Under the pieces are notes generated by a model. The model did not search any database and was not told the DNA's origin. It saw nothing but the letters and a program-made list of their open reading frames with translations. A stretch of 64,000 nt of DNA from Gari tellinella (Eukaryota; Mollusca; Bivalvia; Cardiida; Psammobiidae), in the NCBI GenBank assembly GCA_922989275.2, contig OV277869.1, forward strand, positions 682,001 through 746,000, in the 5' to 3' direction. Both the position numbers and the translations under genes were made by a program. This document shows positions 1 to 63,400 of the stretch, piece by piece. Position 1 is the stretch's first letter, and each line of letters opens with the position of its first letter.

Positions 1-1758
1 TTTTTTCTGACAGGACTTTTTGTCGTGAAAAGCTCCTTTTTTAATAAACAGGAATATTTTCTTTTTAAAATGATATAAACATTAACTCAATAATTTCTGT
101 ACATTCAAGTAAACTGTACATATACTATAAGATATTGGGCAAACAAAAGTATTTCATGACATTTTTTCTGGAAATATCAATATTTTAAAAAAGTCAAATT
201 CTGAAAAAGTCTCTTAATCTCAAATTACAAAAAAATCTAGCTGTTTAACATACACTAACAGAGTTCCCATTCACGTACAGATGTACGTGATTCACGTATA
301 ATTTCAAAAAATCACGCATAAAATCAACGCCCTGAACGTGCATGCACGTACAGATTTATGTTGCAGATAATGCCGAAATCGGATGTAAGAAGACCAGTTT
401 TATTAACAAACAGCAAAATACAAGTTAAACGTCAAAGTCTGGCGTGTCATTCATTTTCCTTATAGTGTCTGTCGGGCGCTTGACAATTCTTATCATTTCT
501 TATTACGTAAAGCGCCTGGTTCACCCGCATTGCGAATATGATGATTAAGGGGTTTAAAATAGATTGTGGGATTTCCCGTCTCTGTGCTTAATAAAGTTGC
601 TATTTTTTCTATCAATTTTTGTTTTTATAAGAGTTCAATACTTATTTAGAGGAATACGTGTTTGAAAAATGCTGACAAATTATTAAAACAAAAAGTCCGG
701 TCATGGGTCTAATTCTGGTCACTTTCGATTTCAAAACAGCGACGCCATTTTTTATGCGAAATCCAAACAACACAGTTGAAAACTGGACGGGTTATCAGAT
801 ATATTTTATCCCGTCTATTAACAATGTTGAGGAAAATGCCTGATTTAGTGAGACACAGTCTTAGCATAGGCCTACGCATTCGTGTAGTCTGCAAATATGT
901 CGGCTAAGTCCCAATTGACGGCCTGGTTAAGAAATAATGTGAGAGATACGAACAGTACACATCCAAACAAAATGATATAAAAATTTAGCGGTGGAACCAC
1001 AAATTTCCAAAGATCATCCCTGGTGCGTATCCATTGTTTGAATACAGATTGCTACTTTGTTATGGGACCACTCGTCGTAGATACCTCATAAGCCTTTCGG
1101 CCCCGGCCTCATCGTACTTTGTCCCTGGCGTCCTCGCATCAGAAGAAACAGAAACACGTTTCATATGCACCCTCTGAAATTTGTCTGCACCCCCAAAAAA
1201 TAGCCCTAGAGGGTGCATGCACCCTCAAAATTAAAAGCCTGTGGGAACCCTGCACTAATTTTACTCTTATAAGATAGATATAACTTAATTCTACTAGTCA
1301 CAAAAATTTAATGAAAATCTACAGTAGAATTTACATTTTATACATGATTTCCTGAAATTCTGACAAAATGTTAACACAAAACGAGTAACCTCCCTTGAGT
1401 TCAACTTTAAAATGCCATCAGCTCTAAATAATACCACAAGTCAAACCTGTAATAAGGGACCATTGAATACGGTAGCCTGTAGATCTTTAAAGGCATGTGA
1501 CTGATTAATGCATAACAAAAGTAATGCATAAAGCTCCTTTAGGATCTATCTTTTAGCATTACTTTTGTCCTGTGTTAAGCTGCCATCTGTCATATAGGCT
1601 ATTAATCCTCACAAAATTTAGCTGTCACTTGACTATACTTGCATCTGATATTATTCATTAGTACACTACGTGACTAAACATAGCCTGTCCTTTGATCACT
1701 GCGTTATGAAATGACTAGTCACTAAAATCGGACAATTTATTTAAAAAAAAAGTTTTGA
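1..1758. other. Upstream AT-rich sequence, no gene recognised
   Basis: No exon with coding character or similarity to the 57395 exon was found on either strand. A short block near 255-355 repeats ACGTAC/CACGTA palindromic words, and 1165-1250 repeats the word TGCACCCTC. Otherwise featureless. Confidence 0.5.
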
Positions 1759-5800: not shown

Positions 5801-8800
5801 ATTCTGCTTTACTTTCAACCTGCTTTAAGTGGTCACCTATCTTGAATAATAGAAACAGGCTATGGGGTAATAGGTTAAGGAGCATTCTGCTTTACTTTCA
5901 ACCTGCTTTAAGTGGTCTTCAAAAATTGAAACAGGCTATAATAGGAATGGGTTAAAACAGACTGATATTATAGCAGAATGTGCCTGAAGGTGAGTGATTC
6001 AGTGCCATCATGGTCTTCATTTTATTTCAGATTAGAGTCGAGAGCTCTGATGAGATGAGATGCTTGATGAGTGCCTACTGTAACCTGGCCGGGCTTTACC
6101 CGCCCAGCAAGGGCGTCGGTCAGATGTGGAACCCAGACTTGGATTGGCAGCCCGTCCCAGTCCACACCCGACCCAGGGTGGAAGATAATGTAAGTCAAAT
6201 CTTGTCTTAACCTGGGGCCCATTTCATAAGTCAGATTATTTTCTATATCCTAGCAACATGAAGCTTAAAGCAGACTGAAAGTAAAGCAGAAGGCACATTT
6301 GAACACATTCTGCTCTACTTTCAACCTGTGCTAAGTGGTCCATGTCTTGAAAGCTAGAAACAGGCTATTTGGTTAACTCTTTGAACCCTAGTCACGTATA
6401 TATGCGTCATTTGCAAACAGCCTACCTGTGACAGAGGAGCACACAAAGTCTTGTTCTATGCAAACAGTGTAGACCCTGATCAGAGGGCTCCTTAAGGAGT
6501 ACTCTTATCAGGGTCTACACTGTTTGTCATTTTGACATATGTTGTAAAAGTCAACCCTAAAAAGACAAAAATGGACTAGACTAAATTGTAAACAAGAATT
6601 GTCCATTTGAGGTTTCAGGGAGGAAAGGGTTAAGGTGCCATTCTTTGAAAGAGCCATGAAAATGGGGTCCGTCTAAAGACCCCAAACTTCCCCAAACCAC
6701 TCCAAACCTGCCTAAAGCACTTGAAAACAATCCAAACCACTTAAATTCCTTAATATCTAATAAAAAAAAGAGCTTATAAATGGCAAATTTAAGCTAAAAC
6801 AATGAAAAAATGTTAATTTAAAAGTAAATATTCGATGTTTTTCTTTTCAAGGGGAACAAATCGAACAAAACTTAAGATCACTTTACACAGTTACCTCTAA
6901 ATATTAACTCACTGTCTTAATTAAGCCTGTTCCTGGTTTTGAAGACAAGTATTCTCTTAAAGCAGGTTGAAAGTAAAGCAGAATGCGCCTTAAGGCGCAT
7001 TCTGCTTTACTTTCAGCCTGCTTTAAGCTACAATCTGCGAGAATTATAAAAACTTGCTTTTAAAAGTGGTTTTGGGAGGTTTGGATAAGTTTGGGGAGGT
7101 TTGGGGTCTTTAGACGGACCGATGAAAATGTGAAGTCTCTAAAGAGAGAGACCAGACTGGTTTACTCAGTGGGTAAAGGAGCTTTCGGTTTCACTCTCAC
7201 CTTGCTTTAAGCAGTCACCTATCCCTAATAATTAACACAATTTAGTAGGTGTAATAGATAGGTTTTAGTGTATCATTATTTGTTTCTAGTACCTGAATAT
7301 GGGAGAAAACTGTCCACGGTACCAACAGCTGATGGCGGAGACGATGCGCTCTAAAAGTATTGCAGAGGAAGAGAAACAGAACAAGGTAAGATAGACACAG
7401 CATAAAATAATTGAACAGAACAAAAAATAAAACTTTTATTATTTCACCGGTTTACACCTTGTAACAACAGGACTCTATATAGCTCAGTATTAAACAACAT
7501 TATTTTGGTATTAACAGTATGCAGTGTTTTTAGGTAATCGATACTTGATATTATGTACTTGCTTAAGTGTTAAGTGGAACTTATTTGTTTTTAGCTCGCC
7601 TGTACGAAGTACATGACGAGCTATTGCAATACCCCCGGTGTAGTCGTCGTGAACGGCGTAAACAATTTTAAAAAATGTCTATAACTTCTATGTCCCTTGA
7701 GGTATTGCTTTCATACTTGGTATGTGTGTGTATATGGACAAGACCTTTCCATGCACAGAAAAATTTTGACCCCTGTGACCTTGACCTTACTTAGGGCCCG
7801 CGTTTAGGTTTCGAAATCTGTGTTTAGGTTTCGAAAAATGTCTTTAACTTCTATGTCCCTTCAGGTATTGCTTTCATAGTTGGTATGTGTGTGTATATAG
7901 ACAAGACCTTTCCATGCACAGAAAAATTTGGACCCCTGTGACCTTGACCTTGACGTCAGGGCCCACGTTTAGGTTTCGAAATCTGTGTTTAGGTTTCGAA
8001 AAATGCCTTTAACTTCTATGTCCCTTCAGGTATTGCTTTCATAGTTGGTATGTGTGTGTATATAGACAAGATCTTTCCATGCACAGAAAAATTTGGACCC
8101 CTGTGACCTTGACCTTGAACTTAAGGCCCGCGTTTAGGTTTCGAAATCTGTGTTTAGGTTTCGAAAACTGCCTATAACTTCTATGTCTCTTGTGGTATTG
8201 CTTTCATAATTGATATGTGTGTGTATATGGACAAGACCTTTCAATGCACAGAAAAATTTGGACCCTTTTGACCTTGACCTTGAACTTAGGGCTCATGTTT
8301 AGGTTTCAAAATCTGTGTTTAGGTTTCGAAAAATGCCTATAACTTCTATGTCCCTTCAGGTATTGCTTTCATACTTGGTATGTGTGTGTATATGGACAAG
8401 ACCTTTCCATGCACAGAAAAATTTGGACCCCTATGACCTTGACCTTGAACTTAGGGCCCACGTTTAGGTTTCGAAATCTGTGTTTAGGTTTCGAAAAATG
8501 CCTTTAACTTCTATGTCCCTTCAGGTATTGCTTTCATAAGAAGTATGTGTGTGTATATGGACAAGACCTTTCCATGCACAGAAAAATTTGGACCCCTATG
8601 ACCTTGACCTTGAACTTAGGGCCCTCGTTTAAGTTTCGAAATCTGTGTTTAGGTTTCGAAAAATGCCTTTAACTTCTATGTCCCTTCAGGTATTGCTTTC
8701 ATAAGAAGTATGTGTGTGTATATAGACAAGACCTTTCCATGCACAGAAAAATTTGGACCCCTGTGACCATGACCTTGAACTTAGGGCTCGCGTTTAGGTT

Positions 8801-11800
8801 TCGAAATCTGTGTTTAGGTTTCGAAAACTGCCTATAACTTCTATGTCTCTTGAGGTATTGCTTTCATAGTTGGTATATGTGTGTATATGGACAACACCTT
8901 TCCATGCACAGAAAAATTTGAACCCTTTTGACCTTGAACTTAGGGCTCACGTTTAGGTTTCGAAATCTGTGTTTAGGTTTCGAAAAATGCCTACATGGGT
9001 GAAAGTTTTCCGTATTGTGACGGAATTCCGTATTTTCGAAATTGACGGGGGTCATTTTCCCAGAACGTGTGTGGGGGGTAGAGGTCGTCGTTGTCAATTA
9101 TGATTCTAAAATCAAACTCGAAGGTTGTTTCGAGAGCTGTCAAATTGATCACGGTGCCAGTTTTATCGTTCGTCGTACATAACGGTGTCGACAAAATCCG
9201 AGTGATCCAAATCAATTGTACTGGTTTCCGAATTTTGTCGCTACACGCACGCGTACAGCGTTGGAAACACGGAAACCAGTCTCTCCTTTTTACGACAATT
9301 TTTCCGGACACAAATATTTCCTTGTATTTTGTGTTTGAAGGATTTCAATAAAATGACAAGCTTCCTAAAATTACAAGGTTAGCAGATTTAACGGGGTTAT
9401 TTGTGATTTTGATATTGTTGCCGATAATTTTCCGTAACGGTACGAAAGACTTCATTTATCTCCGCGACATTCGATGGTTGTTTTCGTCGGAGTCTTACTG
9501 GGCGCTCATTGTTTTATGAATCATGCCGATAACCAGCAGCTAAATATATCACGCGGAACGCATCGTGTTTTATCGTTGGTGCACCAAACTGCAATTAGTT
9601 CATTTTGTCACTAGTTTTCGCGAATTTTATATACCGGCGTATCTGTCAAATGCAGCTTACAAGTTAACTTTTATTTAACGCAAACTAAATAAAATGAAAA
9701 GATTGAACAGGAAATTCGGTTTAAATCCGATTTAATGATAAAACAAGTAGCTTACTGAAGTATTTATGTCACCTTTTTACACACAGCATCATGGAGAAAT
9801 CACATTCTCCATGACAGCATACTGTATTGGGCTATAGAAGTTTGTCTCCATGGCTATAAAGTATGGAAAATATATTTTAATAGCATTCTTTCCTTTAAAA
9901 TAATTCATAGAAGTCATTAAATTCATTAAAAAGAAATATTTATCTTATTTGGATAAACTAATAAATTTTAGTCTAGCATCACAGCTTTCGAAACAGCTTA
10001 GAAATACATCAAAATGCATGAAATTGAATCATTAAAATCTTTTTTTTTCTTCAGGGAGGCCTCCTGTACCACCAGCTATGGGAGGGCTTCCTTCTCCCAT
10101 CCATCCCAATCATAGTCTACTGCTTTGAATTAATAAATTTTGTACATTTAAATCTCTGAAAGCAAGTTGAACATGAAACCCACACATGTACATGTATCAT
10201 GTTTAGAAATTGTTTTTCAATCAAATAGAATAGACATGGCACAGAGGTAAGTTCTTTACTTTATGAGTAAATCTATCGAGCAGAGAGGGGGAGGTATTTT
10301 CATTAGGATAAGTGAAATGCCTATCCCCACCCCTCTCAAACTTCATGCCTTTAAATTTTATGTACAACATTTTAGAATGGCCTGTACACATAATAATAAA
10401 AAGATATTTCCTAAATATATGTATAGGGTAAACCATGCCTTTTTGTGAAGCTGGAGTATGGGGTCAGCCTCTTTCTCTTCACATATATAATCCTGCACCT
10501 AGGCTATGCACTGGTCTTTATATGTGAAATATTCAGGATCGGACAGGACATGGTGTTTGCTGTGAAAATGGCTTTTAGTATATGTACCATTGTTCAATTA
10601 CAGTGATAATTGTTAAAGCAGAGGGCTTATCATTTACTAAAAAAGTAAAAAAAAAAAAGTTTGCTGAATGCCTACTCCAACTTTTGTTTAAAAAAAAAAT
10701 CAAAATTCAGATCTTGGCTCTGATTTTTGTTAATCCTTGGAAAACATTAATGATTATGACCAAGAAAATTATTTTTATATTTTTCCATTGCTTGTCAATT
10801 TCAAACAATTTTCCAACAGTTTCAGACCTTCAAAATGCTTAAAACCCAGGAGCTTTCGGGGGCCTCAGGCCCCCTGATCCCCCCGCCAGGGCCTTGCCCT
10901 GGACCCACTGGGGGCCCTTGCGGCCCCCTAGCCCCCAGCATAGTTTTCAGTATTTTCAGTTTTGCCAACTTTCACCCATGTGCCTATAACTTATATGTCC
11001 CTTGAGGTATTGCTTTCATACTTGGTATGTGTGTGTATATGGACAAGACCTTTCCATGCACAGAAAATTTGGGACCCCTGTGACCTTGACCTTGAACTTA
11101 GGGCCAGCGTTTAGGTTTCGAAAAATGCCTTTAACTTCTATGTCCCTTCAGTTATTGCTTTCATAGTTGGTATATGTGTGTATATAGACAAGACCTTTCC
11201 ATGCACAGAAAATTTGGACCCCCTTGACCTTGAACTTAGGGCCCGCGTTTAGGTTTCGAAATCTGTGTTTAGGTTTTGAAAACTGCCTTTAACTTCTATG
11301 TCTCTTGGGGTATTGCTTTTATAGTTGGTATGTGTGTGTATATGGACAAGACCTTTCCATGCACAGAAAAATTTGGACCCCTGTGACCTTGACCTTGAAC
11401 TTAGGGCCCACGTTTAGGTTTCTAAATCTGTGTTTAGGTTTCGAAAAATGCCTATAACTTCTATGTCCCTTGAGGTATTGCTTTCATAGTTGGTATGTGT
11501 GTGTATATGGACAAGACCTTTCCATGCATAGAAAAATTTGGACCACTGTGACCTTGACCTTGAACTTAGGGTTCACGTTTAGGTTTCGAAATTTGTGTTT
11601 AGGTTTCGAAAACTGCCTATAACTTCTATGCCTCTTGAGGTATTGCTTTCATAATTTGTATGTGTGTGTATATGGACAAGACCTCCCCATGCACAGAAAA
11701 ATTTGGACCCCTGTGACCTTGACCTTGAACTAAGGGCCCGCGTTTAGGTTTCGAAATCTGTGTTTAGGTTTTGAAAAATGCCTTTTACTTCTATGTCCCT

Positions 11801-14800
11801 TCAGGTATTGCTTTCATAGTTGGTATATGTGTGTATATGGACAAGACCTTTCCATGCACAGAAAAATTTGGACCCCTGTGACCTTGACCTTGAACTTAGG
11901 GTTCGCGTTTAGATTTTGAAATCTGTGTTTAGGTTTCGAAAAATGCCTATAACTTCTATGTCCCTTCAGGTATTGCTTTCATAGTTGGTATGTGTGTGTA
12001 TATGGACAAGACCTGTTCCATGCACAGAAAAATTTGGACCCCCTGTGACCTTGACCTTGAACTTAGATCCAGGGTTTAAGGATTCAAAATCTATGTTTAG
12101 GTTTCGAAAAACGTTTATATTTCCTATGTCCCTTGAGGTGTAACTTCATATTTAATTTTCATGTGTATATCGGCAAGACCTTTCCATGCAGGCAAAAAGC
12201 TTGACCTCCGTGACCTTGAGTGTGCTTTTAAGTTTCTAAATGTGCCGATGGCGAGCTTTGTTGTCTCTCTGACAACTCTTGTTCAAAATTAAAACGTGGC
12301 TTAGCCAGATTTTAACTTTGAAATACGGGTATGTAAAACTTAAAACGAGATTGAGTTATTGAAATTTAATTTATTAAATACTGATTAGCTAGACTTAAGC
12401 AAATTCAAAGTATCTAGTTTTTACTGTGTGTATTTTCAGGAATTTTACCAGTTTGTAGGCAAGATGTCTGGCTGGAGTCATGAGAATATTTCCAACATCT
12501 GGCGTGTAGCAGACACAGTCATATGTGAGGTAGGTCATAGTCAGTTAGTGCTCCAAATAAGGGGAGGTTTTGAAAATACTAAATCTTTATTTCTGCATGA
12601 AATCCTATGGTGTCACTACTCTTTGGAATCGTCAGACCAAGACGATTCCAATGAGTAGTAACCCAATAGGATTTGGTGCTGAAATGGATTTGTTTAGTTT
12701 ACTCCCGCTTATCTGAAGCACTGGTCCCAGTGGGGAAGACATTATTTTTTCATACAAAAACTTTGCAAACAGTTTAGAGCCTGATACAGTGGAGAAAAGG
12801 TTATTCTTTCCCAATAAACGCGTTTCCGCTATAACTATTATTTGCAGTGTAAACAGTTTGGAGCCAGATCAGACGCTGGGTAACCCGGCGTCTGATCAGG
12901 CTCCAAACTATTTGCCACTAAGATTAAAATAAATGGTCAGGATTGTCAATAAGTTGTCTTTTTTCTTCGCTTTAGTGTAATGCGTTTGCGTACGTTTGCG
13001 TTTAAACGGGAAAGAATAACGTTTTCTCCACTGTAAGATGCGTAACTAAAACAGGCAGGGAGGCAGGGTGCTTGATGCAGGACAAAAGTGATGCTGAAAG
13101 TTCCAATTAGAGCTTGTTTTTAGGTTAGGCAGTGAACGAAGGACATAAGATACAGGGGGAGGGATATAAGAAACACACATTACCAGTTGACAGTGTGATA
13201 CGGAGTGATGTATTCAGCTGGAGACGTAAACAGCTGATCTGACAAGCCTTGGCACGAGTCTGATCGGTTGTTTCTCCAACAAAAACGTCTTTAGCTGAAT
13301 GCAACACACTGCAGCGCACTTTCAACTGGTGATTTGTTTATTATATGCCTTGAATACAAATCAAAAACAACTAAATTAATAGTTGTTTACATCATTTACG
13401 TACATGTACGAGTGCCGCGTTATTCTTTGTGGCATACACAACTTCTCGTTCTGCTTCAAATAACTAATAAATTTTTTATGTAAAATGATTTAAACAACTA
13501 TTTAGTTGTTTCTGGTTTGTATTCAAGGCATATAATAAACACATTACCAGTTGGCAGTGCGCAACAGAGTGTTGCATTTAGCTCTCGACGTTTTTTGCGG
13601 AAACAACCGATCAGACTCGCGCCAAGGCACTAGTCAGATCGGCTGTTTCCGCCAAAAACGTCTCGAGCTAAATACATCACTCTGTATCGCACTGTCAACT
13701 GGTAATGTGTATGTATTTTACTGTGCAGAAACGCGTGGAAACGCTCAATATCATACAAAGGCATATAATAAACATAAAATGTCTGACACCAAACTGTAAT
13801 TACAGACTCTCTCAGTCTACACTTATCACCTTAAATCATTTCATTACTCCTTAACTCTTTCCTCCCTGAAACTTTAAATGGAAAATTCCAGTTTCCATTT
13901 TAGTCTAGTCCATTTCTAACTTTTAAGGTATGTTTTTGTCAATGATAGGCATTATAACAAACAGTGAAGACCCTGATCAGAGGGCTCCTTTCGGAGCCCT
14001 CTGATCTTGGTCTTCACTGTTTGCATAGGACAAGAGTACGATTCACATGTTCACTGTTTGAAAAGGACGCATATATGCGGGATTAGGGTTCAAAGGGTTA
14101 AATGTGCATTTTTGCACCTTTAGTTTATCCCTCCACTGAAGAAAATAGTTCCATTTTATACAGGCCTTAATATGTAACATACAAAATGTTTCCTATATTC
14201 TAGCAGATGGTAGCTTAAAACAGGTTGACAGTGAAAGAGAATGCACCATGCATTCAGGTGCATTCTGCTTTATTTTCAATCAGCTTTAAGTGGTCACCTG
14301 TCTTGACTATACGGTAATGGGTAAACAGCACAATCTTCGAGAAGCTAGTGGAATTACTATATACTGTTAAATCTGTTTCAGAAACATCATAACCTGAATC
14401 TATCTAGCTGGATTAATAGCACAGTCTTCGACAAGCTAATGGAGTTAGAATCTTACCAGTTTGCTCTGATGTATAACAGTGTAGACAAGTCAAGGTTAAA
14501 GGGAGGTAAGTTGATTTAATCCATTAATCCACAGCCCGTTTCTAGTTTTGCTTTAACTCTTTGCATGCTGGGTAATTTTTTCGTCTGCAACAATTGTCGT
14601 CTGCTTTTGTTCTAAATTAGAATTTTTCAAAATTTCTTTTAAATTCAGGGTCAGAATGGCAAACAGTTTGGATCCTGATGAGACGCCACGTTGCGCGGCG
14701 TCTCATCTGGATCCAAGCTGTTTGCAAAGGTTATGACTGTGGCAGCGACATCCGCCACTACTGTGCAAAGAGTTAAGCTACCATCTGCTAGAGTATAGAA

Positions 14801-50512: not shown

Positions 50513-52141
50513 CATCTACACACTAAATAGAAAACAACACGCAAGACAAACATAAAGCTAAGTGAATATAGGAGCCCGCCTTGGTACGGTCAGTAGCAAT
50601 CAATAATCAATTATAAATTAATTAATTATTAACAACCACTGGGGGGTTAAACCTGGGTTTAGGGGCGCCCAACCTCACACTTATCTCCTATATTCACCTA
50701 TAAAGACGAACAGTGTACATAAAATATAAACCCTGTTCCACAACCTTACAATCAAAATGACCGCCAGCACAGTAAGTAAATACATGTAAAACATCTAACA
50801 AAATTCTCTGACAGGATTATTAGTAACACGGGAAAGAATTAAACATTCAAGCCCGTGTTAAAAATAACCCACTATGGCAACGGTCAAATTGTACTCAAGC
50901 GAATAGTCTGTAGTCACGAGTAACTGTAAGACATGGGAGGGTTTAGGGTACGACAGAGAGGGAGAGAAAAAACAAAGCACGAAAATCCGACATAACTCTC
51001 CCGGTTAAGGACGGCTTTAGAGATACATCATCATGTAGTGCTAAGCCCTGTCTGTCGTCGCACAACCAATGAGGAAAGCATAGTTATCAATTGTAGATTG
51101 ATCGATAACCCGGTCAGTGTACCAATTCCAACGAATATAGTAAACTCCGGGGCAGCGGGATCCCGTCATGTACCCGAGCAAAGCCAATCTATGATGTCAC
51201 CCAAGAAATCAACTGTTGACACAGCGATTGAAAAACACAGCTTACAACCATTAACTTAAACACACCAAGGGGAGGACATTAACATCCTCACAGACAACCC
51301 TAAGGGCAGCAGTGACTGTATCATCCTGGACGAACATGGTGCACAGGCCTCTGCAGTTGACAATAAAGAGACTGCAGCGCCTTGTGTCCATGGAAATGCT
51401 AAGGGATTTGGACAAACCATATGCGACGAGCCCATCGATTTGACCTTGAACAATAGCTGCTCAATTCCTACAAGTGATGACAAACCTGTAGAACAACACA
51501 CTACCCAGCATTTTTCAGGGAAAGGCCGAGCCTGAGAAAGACTGGATCGGAACCCTCGCAGCAACACCCCTCTGAATATGTAAACGCCGACTAAGGCCAA
51601 ACCACTAAGAATATGTACTTTAAATGTTCAAAATGTTAAAGGAAACCTAGCATATGTACAAGAATTATTAAAATCACATGATATCCTGTACTGCCAAGAG
51701 CACTGGTTACTTAACTACGACAATAATCTACTATTTTCCATCAGTGAATACTTTGAAGTAACTGCAAAATCTGCAGATTACATCAATCCCAGGCTCGACT
51801 ACAAGATGATACGGGGATATTGTGGCGTTTGTATATTTTGAAAAAAAGTTCTGGATCCATTCATCAAGGTAACAGACTAGGGAAGCGAGCGTATGATTAT
51901 CATGGAAATACAAACTGAGGAGAAACCTATCTGTCTCATAAATGTATACATGCTTTCCTCAGTCATAAACTCTGACAGTGAATATAAAGAAATACTTAGT
52001 GAAATTCAAGAAGTTCTAAACATCTACAGCCAATCCCACAACACCATACTGTGTGGTGATATGAATGCATCTCTAACACGTGTCACAACAAGAGACTTAC
52101 TCTTCAAAACCTCCATAAAAGAAGCTGATCTGTATATAACA

Positions 52142-52383
52142 GGGGCCCGTTTCATAAAACTTCTTACGACAAATGTTGTCGTAAGTCAAAACTTTAAAAT
52201 ACATTTTATCTGTGAATTCTCTATCTAATCCTGTCTTGTGACATCTTTTTGGAATCGTCTTTTCAAGACAATTCCAAAAATATGTCACAAGACAGGATTA
52301 GACGGAGAAATAAATAGAAATTAAGACTTTTATAATCTGACTTACGACAACATTTGTCGTAAGAAGTTTTATGAAACGGGCCC
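52142..52383. mobile_element. Family K palindromic MITE nested in the LINE endonuclease
   Basis: Ends GGGCCCGTTTCATAAAACTT and AAGTTTTATGAAACGGGCCC; same inner arms as 35705-35946. Confidence 0.85.
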
Positions 52384-52422
52384 AGACCTTGATGATGGCC
52401 AACACTTTCTTTCATCACAACG

Positions 52423-52510
52423 GTATATCGAGGGCTTGGTGCAAAACTATTGTAACTCCTTCACAATTGTGAAGGAGTTACAATGGTTTTGCACCAAGCC
52501 CTCGATATAC
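52423..52510. repeat. 88-bp loopless palindrome nested in the LINE
   Basis: Left arm starts GTATATCGAGGGCTTGGTG, right arm ends CACCAAGCCCTCGATATAC; one mismatch in 44 pairs and no spacer. Confidence 0.9.
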
Positions 52511-53289
52511 AAATCCAAAATTGATCACTTCCTATTCAGTAAGATCTGCATACCAAATATCATAGGAGTTAACATACATTAATTGCACCCTCTGAACTGT
52601 TCAGACCATACAACACTTACACTTGAACTAAAAACCAGGCTGAAAACCCATGCCACCAAATAAATCCTCAACCAGATCTAGAACAAAAATTAATTGGGGA
52701 AATTTTGATATATATACCTACAGGGAAGAAATCAAATCTAGTCTATACAAGCAAGACCAAGATCCTTACTGGCCACCAGAGACATAGATTAAAGAGATTG
52801 GAGTCTCGCGAAACCTCGCAAAATAACGTGTTACCCGAGATCTTACTCGTACGCGTGTAGCGGTTAAGCTTTTGTGTTGTATTTTATAACAGTAAAAACT
52901 TCTAATGATATACGTTCCTGTGGCCACTTGAGGCAAAAATCAAAGCACTAAATGACACTTTAATTGGACAGGAAAGATATATATCCCCAGCTACAGGAAA
53001 TTGAAATCCTTAAAAAAGGACTGGTAGCATCTGGAATTCTGAAATAAGTTGATCTTCAAAAGATGCCAAAGAACTCTTCAAAACTTGGAAAGACTCCGGC
53101 AAGTCGTCTGAACTCCTTTAAAAAAGCTCTCAATGAAAAGTAGAAAGAAATTCGGCGCAGTCAACGTCAAGCTTACGTCAGAGAGAAAAAACAACACAAT
53201 CAAGAAATCCTCACTGCCTGTGAATCTAATGATACATGTTAACCTTTTTACAAGCTAGTCAATAAACGAAGAAAAACGGTCAACGATCA

Positions 53290-55463
53290 TCAAAAAACCC
53301 TTTAGGTAAATGGAGAAAAAATCCAATGACAAGCAGAAATCTTGAATGCATGGACGGACCATTTTGGATCTCTTGCTGCACCAGACAATCAGGATTTTCC
53401 TGAAAATCATGCGTTTAGCTTAGCTAAAGAACATAATCTTATCATCGAAGAAAATATTCAAGAGAGCAAGTTTATATTGCAACCAGCGACACAAGATGAA
53501 GTTACTACATCCATAGCCTCATTTAACTCCGGTAAATCAGCAGACCAGAATGGAATTACAAGTGAACACTTTAAATCTGCCAAGGATGATGTAGCACCTC
53601 TTTTGACTGGAATCATTAATACAATATTTGAAAAGCTGGACGTCCCTGACTTCTTTTAGTGCGGGATCCTCAACCCTATTCATAAAAAAGGCAAAGACAA
53701 ACTCTTAACTGGAAACTATAGAGGTATTGTTATATCAGACACCTTATCAAAATTCTAGAAAGTAACTTCAAGACAAGGATAGACAAGATATTTGAAAGTC
53801 AACAGAATCCACTCAAATAAGGCTTTACTCCTAGGAGCTCCTAAATGAATGCTGCATATATTGTTACCGTAACAATCGACCACTACAAGCAAATAGGCAA
53901 ACCTCTTCTGTTTGCCACACTACCGGTAGATGCACAGAAAGCATTCGACACCGTGAACCACGAAGTTTTATACAACTAATTGTATCTCATTGGCATTGAT
54001 TGGCAACTATGGCTGCTTCTTCGAAATCTCTATCGGCTCTCAACTGTAAGGATAAAATGGGAAGGGGAGTTATCTCAATAGTTTGAACTGAAAGAAGGGA
54101 CAAAACAAGACGCCAAACTTTCTACAACTCTTTACAAGATCTACCACAATCACCTGCTGAGCTCATTATCTAACAGTTCTCTGGGAGCATATCTAGGCAA
54201 TATCAACGTATTTGTCGCAACCTGTGCGGATGATACAGCACTACTTGCCATCACAGCGGAAGAACTACAAGCAATGTTGGATGTTGCTGACTTCAACACA
54301 AAACGGGACTTGGTTAAAATTAATCAGGAGACATCAGAAATCTTAGCATTTAATTCAAAGAAGACTCCTGCTGTGACGATCGACAATCAATGTTTACCTG
54401 AAGTCTAAAAGCTGAAACACTAAGTCATCAACAGAAATGAGAAAAACAACGTAGACACCGAGGGAAGAATCAATATCGTGCAAAATACAGTACATTCGCT
54501 TCTAGGCCCCGGTCTTCACGCCAGGAGGGGAAATTCACCAATTGTTTCGTATAAAATGTGGGGTACGTATGTAACCCCTATATTTCTATATGGTATAGAA
54601 GTACAGCAGATTCCCAAGACTGCCCAATAGAAACTTGAAAACTACCAGAAGAAGATACTCAAGCACAAACAAGGCCTTCCTGAACGGACATCCACCGCAG
54701 CAGTCTACACTCTCATAGGTGGTGAACCTATTGAAACGTTGATCGACAAAGCATGCCTGTCACTATTTTTCACATCATACACCTTCCAAACTCAGTTGAA
54801 TACAAGCTTCTAGAAAGACAGCTTGCCATGTCTAACATTGATGGACCCAGTTTCACATCTAAAGTCAGACGAATACTTGAAAAGTACAACTTACCTACGC
54901 CTGAACAAATTATCAGAGATTTACCCTCAAAGCACAAATGGGACGGCAGCCAATAAGCACTGAACCAATGTTTGGATCGAAGACCTATCCAAGCAATTAA
55001 CAACAAAGTTCTTGCAGATGCAACCAAATCCAATTGGCATGCCCCATAATGTCTGGAAATCTGCCAAGTCAAACCTACATAAAGTTAGACGAGCTGAAAT
55101 AAAATCGAGGCATTTTACAGGGACTTACATTCTACAGTCAAATACGGCCAAGTATAACCAAAATGCAGTCCCTGCAATCGGCAAATTATGTGGACAGGAA
55201 GATGAAACACGAGAATACCTTGTAGCAAGTTGCTAAACTCCCAAATAAACTTCCCAATTTTCCAACAGAAACTTCAAGACACGTACAGGCTCGATAATGC
55301 AGACAGTAATCTCCTCACACATAAAGTGACTGACTGCACCCATAGAAATGTCAATGAAAACATGAAACTTAGTAGCCAGCAGGAAGTTGATGTTGGGAGA
55401 TGGTCACAGATTTACTGTGAGAGACTGTTAGCTGAGGGAACCAGGGTTCTTAGTGTTATGTAG
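53290..55463 (+). pseudogene. LINE reverse transcriptase and C-terminal domain, broken
   Basis: Motifs: SFNSGKSADQNGITSEHFK, NPIHKKGKDK then NYRGI, DAQKAFDTVNHEVL, and CADDTALL in place of the usual YADD. The C-terminus has KLCGQEDETREYLVASC, a cysteine-rich knuckle as in many LINEs, and ends at the TAG at 55461. At least ten stops or frameshifts. Confidence 0.88.
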
Positions 55464-55499: not shown

Positions 55500-56580
55500 A
55501 TAGTTATATGAACGATAACAGAGCTATTAAACCATATAAACTAAGTAAATTACTAATTGAATCAGTGACCTAGTTCTGAGTATCATATTTATAGCCATAC
55601 CGGCCGCTATTGATTAAAATTATCGTTCGTACATAGTAACTTTTATCTCGCGTAAAAAACGTACATGTATATATGCTGCCAAACGCGAGTGATTGGTTCC
55701 ATGGGAAGTACATGCTTGTGATAACGACTAGACAACTTACCACATCATCCTTATCGAGGAGTGCTCCGAAGAACAAGAAGAATCTACCAGAATACTACTA
55801 CTATGGTATATAACATATTAGTTACACACTGGAAATTTTGTATAACCACAAGAAGTCTAAATGTTGCGAAAAATGCGATTTTGTAATTTCAGAGGGTATA
55901 AAAGTTCTGAATAAGGGGAGGTCCTTTGAAAGCACAGAAAACAAAGCAAATACTGAAAATTGCAGACTCGGTTTAATTGAATCTGTTCATGAGCAATATT
56001 AAAATATGCAACAGTGCTCACGCCCCCTAGCACCAGCTTAAGCGGAATTCAACTTTCAACTGTAAATGCGCTGAAATCAATGATTCCAAAGGACCAGAAA
56101 GTATAACAACACTGAGAATGAAGTACGGGGCGACTTTTTACAGCCGCCACACAAGCACTTAACATCTGCTGTTGTGAATCTGCTGAATCATATAAGTTCT
56201 GCATAAGGGGAGATCCTTTGAAAGCACAGAAAACAAAGCAAATACTGAAAACTGCAGACTCGGTTTTATTTAGTCTGTTCATGAGCAATAGCCACTACCC
56301 CTCATAGTTCTGTTTTACCTGTTTTTCTCCCTAAAAACGGTTTTGTAAAATGTTATTTGATGATAAACTTTTATCAAACCGTGTTAAGTTTGTGCCATGT
56401 ATCAAAAAGAAAATATTTGGGGAAGTATAACTATTTGATTCACATTTGAAGTGATAATATATTATTAAACGCCGAATCGGAATATATCGGTCCTGTGTAA
56501 TATAAACAGTTCCGTAAGAGTTTAACTTTCTGTATATTCAGCCGTGTTTAAGATATGAAATGCAGTATGAACGAGATTGT
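55500..56580. other. Spacer with a direct repeat, no gene recognised
   Basis: A block of about 90 bp with AAGGGGAGGTCCTTTGAAAG and CTGTTCATGAGCAATA occurs at 55910-56005 and again at 56200-56290 in the same orientation. No coding signal. Confidence 0.6.
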
Positions 56581-56630
56581 GTTTGTCACGGTACCGAACC
56601 TAACACAGTTGGGGAGATCAACTTGTAGTC

Positions 56631-56703
56631 AGCCGGTTAGCTCAGTCGGTAGAGCGTCGGAACGGTAGTCCGAAGGTCCCGGGTTCGAGCCCCGGTCAGG
56701 CTG
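56631..56703 (+). other. tRNA-like segment in 5' LTR
   Basis: A D arm, a paired anticodon stem (TCGGA/TCCGA) with a 7-base loop, and a strong T arm (CCGGG TTCGAGC CCCGG) are visible. Position 33 is C instead of U and the acceptor stem has two mismatches, so it is unlikely to work as a tRNA. Confidence 0.7.
56638..56692 (+). promoter_or_regulatory. Pol III A and B boxes inside the TRIM LTR
   Basis: TAGCTCAGTCGG (56638-56649) matches the A box and GGTTCGAGCCC (56682-56692) the B box, at tRNA-gene spacing. The run TCTTTTTCT at 56706-56713 could act as a Pol III terminator within the LTR. Confidence 0.65.
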
Positions 56704-56728
56704 CATCTTTTTCTCCCCCTGTGACATT

Positions 56729-56746
56729 TGGCGCCCAACGTGGGGC
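56729..56746 (+). other. Primer-binding-site-like sequence of the TRIM
   Basis: TGGCGCCCAACGTGGGGC starts two bases after the LTR; TGGCGCCCA is complementary to a tRNA 3' end ...TGGGCGCCA. Confidence 0.75.
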
Positions 56747-56874
56747 CGTGACTGTTATTGTATGGTTAGTTAACAGCGCCTGCATTTATGACTATAGTCT
56801 AACTCACAAAATTGAACTACATGTACTTTCATGTACGGTAATTCGAGGACGAATTTAAATTTCGTGGGGAAGTA

Positions 56875-57017
56875 TGTCACGGTACCGAACCTAACACAGT
56901 TGGGGAGATTAACTTGTAGTCAGCCGGTTAGCTCAGTCGGTAGAGCGTCGGAACGGTAGTCCGAATGTCCCGGGTTCGAGCCCCGGTCAGGCTGCATCTT
57001 TTTCTCCCCCTGTGACA
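56875..57017 (+). repeat. TRIM 3' LTR
   Basis: 143 bp, same ends as the 5' LTR; followed by TGTT, the target duplication. Confidence 0.85.
56922..56994 (+). other. tRNA-like segment in 3' LTR
   Basis: Same as the 5' copy, with GAATGT for GAAGGT in the variable region. Confidence 0.7.
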
Positions 57018-57163
57018 TGTTCATCCATGGATTTGAATATTTGTTTGAGGTGAATTTGGTGGGCACTCTATTTTTGATCATTTGACTTACACATTTTTAA
57101 ACTCTATCAACATTGACTCAATATCTCTATATGCACTAGATAACATTCTTTCTGAATGGAGCT

Positions 57164-57353
57164 TAACCCCTTCGCTGCCTCAATGTTTTCTTTGCAAACA
57201 GTTTGGATCTTGACGCGGCGTCTGATCAGGATCTAAACTGTTTGACACTCATTTCAATTTTTCTTTAGTCAAAATACCTTAAATTTTATTCTGAGCAATG
57301 AAAGCAGACGACACTTGTTTAAATTTGATGACGTCATGGCAGTGAAGGGGTTA
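57164..57353. mobile_element. Family H MITE, just before the copy 2 upstream exon
   Basis: CCCCTTCGCTGCC left, GATGACGTCATGGCAGTGAAG right; hairpin with a truncated left arm at 57195-57245. It ends about 40 bases before the exon. Confidence 0.65.
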
Positions 57354-57394
57354 ATGTAATTTTTAATAGATTGGATGTCAGCCTTTTTCCCCAG

Positions 57395-60400: not shown

Positions 60401-63400
60401 ATATGAAATGCTCTGTTGTATGGAAATACATTGCTGTGCCTTTAGATCACTATTGTTTCTGTAATGAAATTTTCCAGCAAGTACTGCGAGAGTTGATTAG
60501 ACTATTTAGGCATAAATGGAGTACTGTCTTTTGCCACGTATTGTGCGCATCCGTGTATAGTACGCACCCTAATTGTCAGGGTTATATGTCTGGAAAAAAA
60601 CTTTTTCCCAAGGTTTTGGTCAGTCCTCATACGCTGAACTTCTCCTGCTAACGAAGTTGTTGTAAAATCAACTTTGTGTTATAACAATTATACAATAAAA
60701 CCTCTCTATTACAACCACTAAAATCCGATTAATTGATTGTATGAAAGATAGATGGCAGCTTAAAGCAAAGGTGAAAGTAAAAAAACCAGAAAGCGTCTAA
60801 AGGAGCTTTCTGTTTTACTTCACCTTTCTTTAATCAGTCACCTGCCTCAAACACTTGATAGTATTTACATTCGCCCTATCTCTTTCCGTTGTAAAAATCG
60901 GTGTTCATTTCTTATAGACACTCCAACCTTAGGAGGCGGAGCTTAGGGTTAAGTCGCTGCGCATTAATTTTCACTACTCTAGAATTAGAAATCCACGTTG
61001 TATTTGACCTAGATTGAATCTAGTTTATTTCCCAATCTTTTTTTAAAACACTAAATACCAATATACGACTCGTATATAGATTTTATATTCAAATTTATAT
61101 AAATTATTTACACTCATTGTGAAAAAAATGCAGTAGGAAGCGCTCCGAAACTTTGTCCGTCTGGTACGAATTTTTATACCCCCCGCAAACAATTTCTTGG
61201 CGCCCAATGCAACCGGGTGTTCTTTATAAAGAAACACCCGCGCCGACCCGGGTTTGAACCCGGGTCGCAAGGTTCGCAGTCATGCACTCTACCACGTCGC
61301 CTCAAAAGCGCACTTGTACAGTAAGGCCGTTCAAGTCATGATAAACCTACACTGTGACATACTCCCCCGACAACTTTAAACTTGTGCACAGTGCGTCGAT
61401 GCTCCAGAGGGGACCTGCACTTAATGGGAAGAAGAGGAAGAGAAACTTTACAGAATAATCACTGAAATTACTGGTAAATAGCGCTAATGATAGAAAAAAA
61501 ATCACAAAACATTAGTAATCCTCAGCTCCTGTCCGGTTCTAACTTAGGCTCCGAGTATTGGCTCCAAAACCATTAATACCCCATATGGTGGCTCTCAGCT
61601 TCTGATTTCTATATGGTCCGTGCCCGTTAAGAATACGGTTTTAGCGTTCACACTTGACGATTGCTTGCACCGTTGCATGAATTAAAAACCTGATTGAGGA
61701 TAAGAAAAAGTACTTGGATGTACTTAAAAGTATTTTCCCTAGTAAAAACCTGAAGTGAATTTGAGAAATATATTATACGCGCAGTATAGATCTAGCTATG
61801 TTATTTGGTTACAGAGGGGGGGGGGGGGTTTACTTCGTTAAAGCTGTTCTTTCAAGTTTATTTCTTCGAAGTACTTTTCCCCTTTTCAATACCATTTCTC
61901 CTTTAAAAACTGAAAGTCTGAATTGTTTTCATAACAAATATAAAGATAACATAATGTAAATATAAGAAATGAACAGAATTTTTCGGTGTTCAAGCGAAAT
62001 GAACGAAAGAAAATTATCGACAAATTTACCATGAATCGCTGGTATTTGCCGACAATTTTCTGTCGTTCATTTCGCTTGAACACCGAAAAAAATCAATTCA
62101 TTTCTTAAATAAATTCAATTTAGTGGTTGTAATAGAGAGGTTTTACTGTATCATTATTTTGTTTCTACAGTGGAGAAAACGTTATTCTTTCCCAATAAAA
62201 TATTTTAAACGAAAACTATTATTTCCTTTGCAAACAGTTTGGAGCCAGAGAAGACACCGGGTAACCCGGCGTCTGATCAGGCTTCGAACTGTTTGACACT
62301 CAGATTAACATAAATAGTGTGAAGTCGAACAATTGTCGTATTTTCGTTTTATTGTGATGCGTTAAAACGGGAAAGAATAACGTTTTCTCTACTGTAGTAC
62401 TTGAATATGGGAGAAAACTGTCCACGGCACGAACAGCTTTTGGCAGAGACGATGAACTCTAAAACTTTTACAGAGGAAGAGAAACGGAATAAGGTAAGAA
62501 AGATACACAGCATAAAATAATTGAACAGAACAAAAATAAACAACTTTTTATGTTGCCCGGTTGCATCTTGTAACAACAGGGCTCTATATAGCCCAGTATC
62601 CCAGTATTAACAATGTAAGATAAACAGCAGAAAAGAATTGAACAGAACTTGAACAAACTTTTTATTATGTTGCCCGGTTACATCTTGAAACAACAGGACT
62701 CTATATAGTCCAGTATTAACAATGTAAGATAAACAGCAGAAAAGAATTGAACAGAACTTGAACAAACTTTTTATTATGTTGCCTGGTTACATCTTGAAAC
62801 AACAGGGGTCTATATAGCCCAGTATTAACAATGTAAGATAAACAGCAGAAAAATATTGAACAGAACATGACACACTTTTTATTATGTTGCCTGGTTACAT
62901 CTTGAAACAACAGGGGACTATATAGCCCAGTATTAACAATGTAAGATAAACAGCAGAAACTTATTGAACAGAACATGACACACTTTTTATTATGTTGCCT
63001 GTTTACATCTTGTAACAACAGGACTCTATATTGCCCAGTATGAACAATGTAAGATAAACAGCAGAAAAAGAACCAAAAGATCGTTTATTACCTTGCCTGG
63101 TTACAACCAGTATGCAGTGTTTTTACATAATCAAAACTTGATAATACATACTTGCTTAAGTGGAACTTATCCATATTTCAAAGTTAAAACGTGACTTAGC
63201 CATGTTTTAAATTTGAAATACGGGTATGTTAAACATTAACGAGATTGAGTTATTGAAATGCTATTTATAAAGTACTGATAAGTTTGACTGAACTCATTCA
63301 CCCCTGAAACTTTTAAAGGACCATTCCAATATCAATGTTAGTTAAGTATATTTTTGACTATTTAAGGTGGATTTTAACAACGTTTTACAAAATGTAAAAA

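Follow-up and report, generated by a model that had tools for sequence, protein, structure and literature searches.

What kind of element occupies positions 56584-57017 of the window, the 64-kb stretch of DNA analysed here (G000:C14:682001-746000), and how is it copied? The original prediction was of a miniature LTR retrotransposon in whose LTRs a tRNA-like sequence supplies a Pol III promoter, a reading that the analysis supports. We hold with high confidence that the element is one copy of a multicopy Helenus-type TRIM, predicted to be transcribed by Pol III, with reverse transcriptase and integrase likely supplied by a Gypsy element, and that the forms of its primer site suggest rewriting by the primer. 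The name Helenus was given by Kojima in 2024 to TRIMs whose LTRs include a tRNA-like sequence (PMC10886601).

Anatomy of the element

The element of 434 bp (56584-57017) consists, on the plus strand of the window sequence, of a 5' LTR (56584-56726) and a 3' LTR (56875-57017), 143 bp each, enclosing an interior of 148 bp (56727-56874), and it is flanked on both sides by the duplicated target TGTT (56580-56583 and 57018-57021). The LTR termini form a 6-base inverted repeat, TGTCAC...GTGACA, and the LTRs differ from each other at two sites, 56619/56910 (C/T) and 56675/56966 (G/T). The predicted 434-bp structure with TG...CA LTRs, two LTR differences and a TGTT duplication was therefore confirmed to the base. 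Among 62 LTR copies including those of the window, T is the usual base at site 56619 (58 copies, against C and A in 2 each) and G at the site of 56966 (61 copies, against T in 1); as one side of each LTR difference carries the rarer base, both are likely changes that followed insertion.

The primer-site-like sequence and the purine tract that had been noticed were also located. The 18-base primer binding site TGGCGCCCAACGTGGGGC (56729-56746, plus strand) begins two bases past the 5' LTR and is the complement of the 3' end of a host tRNA-Lys(CUU) plus CCA, while the next-best matches in the window reach 12/18 letters on the plus and 13/18 on the minus strand; the same 18 letters are named PBS Lys1,2 in PMC1084362 and PMC8775094. 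The purine-rich tract GTGGGGAAGTA (56864-56874, plus strand) abuts the 3' LTR. The longest stop-to-stop frame in the element, among listed frames of at least 70 aa, has only 84 aa, in line with the claim that coding capacity is absent. No second copy of the element was found within the 64-kb window.

Other features were observed in the window. A truncated biv-TRIM lies at 55898-56290, ~290 bp upstream of the element, with a 101-bp direct repeat of 93% identity (55898-55998 and 56190-56290); on the plus strand, the published biv-TRIM primers match at 20/20 letters (56137-56156) and 19/20 letters (56026-56045), and the conserved interior motif matches at 13/14 letters (56081-56094) (PMC6934838). 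The presence of this biv-TRIM makes it very likely that the host is a bivalve. A MITE-like sequence at 57163-57354 has 17-base inverted ends, TTAACCCCTTCGCTGCC...GGCAGTGAAGGGGTTAA, with one mismatch by eye. Broken frames at 51584-54405 (plus strand) resemble by eye a LINE endonuclease and reverse transcriptase; protein similarity searches with two window frames, one of them a piece of this stretch, gave no match at E 0.001. A tandem repeat of 165 bp forms two arrays, at 7671-8993 and 11109-12219, whose units are similar. At ~1745-1821 on the minus strand an A/B box pair 44 nt apart precedes a T run; this may be a SINE of tRNA origin, and no tRNA was called there by Rfam. Finally, TTGGCGCCCAA near the palindrome GGGTTTGAACCCGGG, resembling a B box, at 61197-61270 is perhaps a decayed tRNA-derived element.

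Copies in the genome

We surveyed the genome (1.598 Gb, 80 contigs) with the LTR and with the interior as queries. The LTR gave at least 41 matches, 40 of them full or nearly full length at 98-100% identity and one of 47 bp, which is a lower bound because 40 of 1241 first-look candidates were scored; the interior gave at least 40 matches (40 of 223 first-look candidates scored). Contigs C1-C19 were all represented among the listed matches. A first set of 35 loci, from which L008, L028 and L029 were excluded beforehand as duplicates of the same elements, held 30 unbroken insertions, 28 of them with an exact 4-bp duplication. In the full set of 74 loci, places were merged by their flanks and hits less than 40 bases from a locus end were skipped, which left 52 distinct insertions, of which 41 are unbroken; the other 11 are broken or partial.

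Other copies carry paired LTRs and target duplications, so the first of the two refuting conditions named with the original prediction does not apply. The 41 unbroken insertions comprise 36 LTR-INT-LTR elements, three solo LTRs and two tandem arrays (L010 with three LTRs and L056 with five), and the 4-bp duplication is exact in 35 of them, each with a chance of ~1 in 256; of the remainder, L009, L043, L056 and L074 are off by one base and L012 and L055 by two. Copies with target duplications lie on many contigs, which contradicts the alternative of two tandem tRNA pseudogenes at one locus, the second of these conditions. We give this alternative, together with that of a functional tRNA-Thr gene discussed below, next to no probability.

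In 38 insertions the paired LTRs were compared and, leaving out indels, differ at 0-10 of their 143 sites; since the copies read are those most similar to the window's, identities and ages are skewed towards similar, young copies. Interiors are 135-148 bp long in 30 aligned copies, 141 bp in 19 of them, and all 30 terminate in the 11 letters of GTGGGGAAGTA. The loci L022 and L035 have common 8-base flanks and are ~2.4 kb apart, and therefore may be one insertion that was duplicated with its surroundings. A search of viral contigs for relatives gave a single 17-base match, with no more than 18 bases alike, which we attribute to chance; four further patterns for relatives or a partner gave none in viral contigs, and two patterns gave no relatives in public genome contigs. 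The 52 insertions in one genome constitute a test set for how Helenus elements copy themselves.

The tRNA-like domain and its predicted Pol III signals

A tRNA-like stretch with A and B boxes in each LTR, another part of the original prediction, was recovered: ARAGORN and Rfam both call a tRNA in both LTRs (Rfam scores 49.9 and 48.4 bits; gathering score 29), and with the stems they place the domains at 56631-56703 (ARAGORN 56631-56704, Rfam RF00005 56631-56703) and at 56922-56994, both on the plus strand. Within the 5' LTR, the A box TAGCTCAGTCGG (customary consensus; TRGCY and YGG in PMC10886601) spans 56638-56649 and the B box GGTTCGAGCCC (GGTTC in PMC10886601) 56682-56692, on the plus strand. 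The starts of the two boxes are 44 nt apart in both LTRs and a T5 run lies downstream, at 56708-56712 in the 5' LTR, where it is a predicted Pol III terminator, and at 56999-57003 in the 3' LTR, where it is the predicted end of the full-length RNA.

The domains could be taken for tRNA genes proper, since ARAGORN names both tRNA-Thr with the anticodon GGT. Of the seven acceptor pairs two do not form, and ACGGTAG, the anticodon loop, which is kept in 83 of 92 LTR copies, lacks the U33 that is usual in tRNA anticodon loops; because of these two features the tRNA-like RNA of the LTR is probably not a decoding tRNA, and a functional tRNA-Thr gene was rejected on the same grounds. The minimum-energy fold of the domain (-27.3 kcal/mol) is not a cloverleaf and is not below shuffled sequences (z -0.56), and the cloverleaf fold reaches -22.2 kcal/mol. 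In a comparison with 14 human tRNAs, Lys-TTT and Ile-AAT came closest to the domain, at 57 identities each, which is no more than a lead. Elements of this kind cause automatic tRNA finders to list tRNA-Thr genes whose products are probably not decoding tRNAs.

We propose that RNA synthesis, predicted to be by Pol III, would start near 56631 from the tRNA-like domain, pass the T5 run in the 5' LTR without stopping and terminate at that of the 3' LTR, yielding a transcript of ~373 nt. As such an RNA would extend from near 56631 to the 3' T5 run, the tRNA-like stretch would stand at both of its ends and could act as the repeated R region for first strand transfer. Transcripts stopping at the first T5 run would instead be 82-nt tRNA-like RNAs.

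The required read-through is also a point that counts against this model, given that the T5 run in the 5' LTR should halt Pol III, and it favours an ordinary Pol II TRIM, whose RNA would begin within the first 47 LTR positions and in which the tRNA-like stretch is a passenger, e.g. an old SINE insertion. The fold energy of the domain likewise lends the Pol III model no support. As a rule, known TRIMs are transcribed by Pol II (PMC10853983). Moreover, a comparison of 92 LTR copies revealed no conservation of the boxes or the T run above the LTR background, with change rates of 0.0155 for the A box, 0.0079 for the B box and 0.0109 for the T run against 0.0134 upstream. On the other hand, none of TATAWA, AATAAA and ATTAAA was found on the plus strand of the element, both boxes and the T5 run stand at the spacing of a tRNA gene, with a chance of ~3% in the window for a T5 run at so short a reach, and a second family with a different LTR, described below, keeps the same layout. 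On balance we consider Pol II transcription unlikely. The absence of TTTT from the interior is not significant (987/5000 shuffles; 30% of window segments).

Two forms of the primer site and two host tRNA-Lys genes

The host tRNA-Lys(CUU) gene gave at least 40 genome matches (40 of 156 first-look candidates scored), and ARAGORN reported tRNA-Lys ctt in L076, L096 and L097. The 73-nt gene is identical in all 20 loci read, which belong to one tandem array, and with CCA added it predicts the primer site of the window element at 18 of 18 letters. This array (L076-L095; G000:C2, 81.01-81.06 Mb) is long, with a unit of ~1478 bp that contains the tRNA-Lys(CUU) genes, and a tRNA-Gly(GCC) gene was also seen in it at L076.

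Among 51 interiors, the primer site occurs in two main forms that are distinguished at positions 13 and 17. After removal of L035, the likely duplicate of L022, and of three extra units of L056, 47 interiors were left, with T,G in 22, A,A in 19, T,A in 5 and A,G in 1, the last two being mixed forms (six copies). The two positions are tightly linked (Fisher p 1.2e-7, 47 copies), and the site is exact to the letter in 17 copies of the T,G form and 12 of the A,A form. For the A,A form, the tRNA end that would pair with it, TTCRANTCCCTCGTTGGGCG, had 26 matches in the genome and its backward control none. Of four matching places that were read, two (L098, L099) belong to a second element family and two (L100, L101, near 1500-1595) to a tRNA gene whose anticodon loop, CTTTTAA, is followed by an insert and which has a T run downstream. 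ARAGORN labels this gene tRNA-???, and its acceptor strands GCCCGGC and GTTGGGC form 7/7 pairs by eye, two of them G-U; we read it, from its sequence, as a putative intron-containing tRNA-Lys(UUU). A search with a tRNA-Lys(UUU) pattern allowing a gap of up to 30 had found no match, and the gene found later has the insert behind the loop. The fit of the A,A form to the 3' end of this tRNA was built into the search pattern, so what is new here is the existence of such genes.

The primer-site forms show almost no linkage with the remainder of the interior. The mean interior distance is 7.25 within forms and 7.24 between forms, and the interior of L017 is identical to those of L019, L031 and L060, yet its primer site is of the opposite form. 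In retroviruses, the plus strand copies the last 18 bases of the primer in each round, and forms that match host lysine tRNAs and are shuffled over the interiors are what would be expected if this also took place here. The occurrence of two forms that each match a host tRNA-Lys gene and show almost no linkage with the interior thus suggests that the primer rewrites its own site and that both tRNA-Lys isoacceptors serve as primers.

Alternatively, the forms might represent inherited lineages or products of recombination between RNAs, with no rewriting by two primers. A nearest-neighbour test leans weakly towards inheritance (55/1000 shuffles reach the observed value, 117/500 in a smaller set), one of eight interior sites is tied to the primer form at an uncorrected p of 0.009, and template switching between RNAs would likewise unlink the primer site. 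Against this alternative stand the equal interior distances within and between forms, the interior that L017 shares with copies of the other form, and the exact complementarity of each form to a host tRNA-Lys gene. Template switching could nevertheless produce a similar picture, and we judge this alternative rather improbable, though less so than Pol II transcription. Returning to rewriting by the primer, first-strand synthesis would likely be primed by tRNA-Lys, and the site would be renewed from whichever tRNA-Lys had primed. Reverse transcriptase and integrase would act in trans, likely from a Gypsy element, to judge by the results of Kojima for animals (PMC10886601). As the two forms are tied to two tRNA-Lys genes, primer choice and rewriting can be checked by counting.

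A second tRNA-LTR family

The loci L098 and L099 (near 1200-1750, minus strand) contain a second family of tRNA-LTR elements. Its LTR, 145 bp in L098, reads TGTGTAGC...ATGTTACA; over 79 bp its tRNA-like stretch shares 76% identity with the LTR of the window element, and both a T5 run and an A,A primer site are present. Past the primer site stands TCGAACCC, followed by sequence complementary to the tRNA-like part of the same LTR, which in L099 is present as an inverted LTR. TCGAACCC is also the product expected from copying past the 18th base of a tRNA-Lys primer, and our guess is that the fusions, from two loci, arose by a jump from the primer to the LTR during copying.

Taken together, a tentative scheme can be drawn that we hold possible without favouring it: the family would be driven by Pol III with the tRNA-like stretch as R, the primer site would be overwritten in each round by either lysine tRNA, and in the sister family copying would have overrun the site and jumped, leaving inverted fusions. 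If the site is overwritten in each round, the genomic copies would form a readable record of primer choice.

Comparison with known elements

Like the window element, tRNA-derived SINEs are short and non-coding and have a tRNA-derived Pol III promoter. Unlike LTR elements, SINEs have no LTRs, primer binding site or polypurine tract and are moved by LINE machinery. The biv-TRIM is likewise a miniature LTR element of bivalves, but it is described with TDRs of 202-218 bp, an interior of 77-80 bp and no clear tRNA primer site, and its primers (up to 5 mismatches) and interior motif (up to 2) were absent from 56584-57017 (PMC6934838). Ajax of nemerteans also combines an animal TRIM with an LTR promoter derived from a small RNA, but differs in its 5S fragment, 5-bp duplications and tRNA-Leu primer (PMC10886601).

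The original prediction named Cassandra as the precedent, and this is the right analogue, being a TRIM whose LTR harbours a promoter and a terminator for Pol III and which also occurs in tandem arrays (PMC7215508, PMC10853983). Cassandra is found in plants and carries 5S rRNA, whereas the window element has a tRNA-like stretch; Rfam at gathering score called only tRNA, and no 5S rRNA, in the window. The suggested tRNA counterpart in an animal does exist, but it is not new: it has been published as Helenus, bivalves included (PMC10886601), and the expected novelty is therefore mostly gone.

According to that account, bivalve Helenus comprises 51 families, spread over five pteriomorph orders and including seven with the potential to encode tRNA-Thr, with tRNA-Lys and others as primers in bivalves and Gypsy partners in animals, and transcription by Pol III was left open (PMC10886601). 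The literature on Helenus located since 2023 consists of Kojima 2024 and a meeting report citing Kojima. The window element matches Helenus in each structural feature tested and is assigned to it by structure, not by a published family sequence. At 434 bp it falls within the Helenus range of 311-1263 bp, with two LTRs and no coding capacity, and its LTRs hold a tRNA-like stretch with the box motifs TRGCY, YGG and GGTTC. In the same way as in Helenus, a primer site stands beside the 5' LTR, here with 18/18 letters to host tRNA-Lys(CUU) plus CCA, and a polypurine tract, here GTGGGGAAGTA, precedes the 3' LTR. As in animal Helenus, target duplications are of 4 bp (35/41 exact, four of the other six off by one base), and solo LTRs occur, as do tandem arrays, the latter known from one Helenus family (PMC10886601). 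The kind of element is thus already known, and what the analysis adds is a clean count of the family together with a two-primer pattern: for Helenus, primer changes are reported between families, whereas here two primer-site forms stand inside one family.
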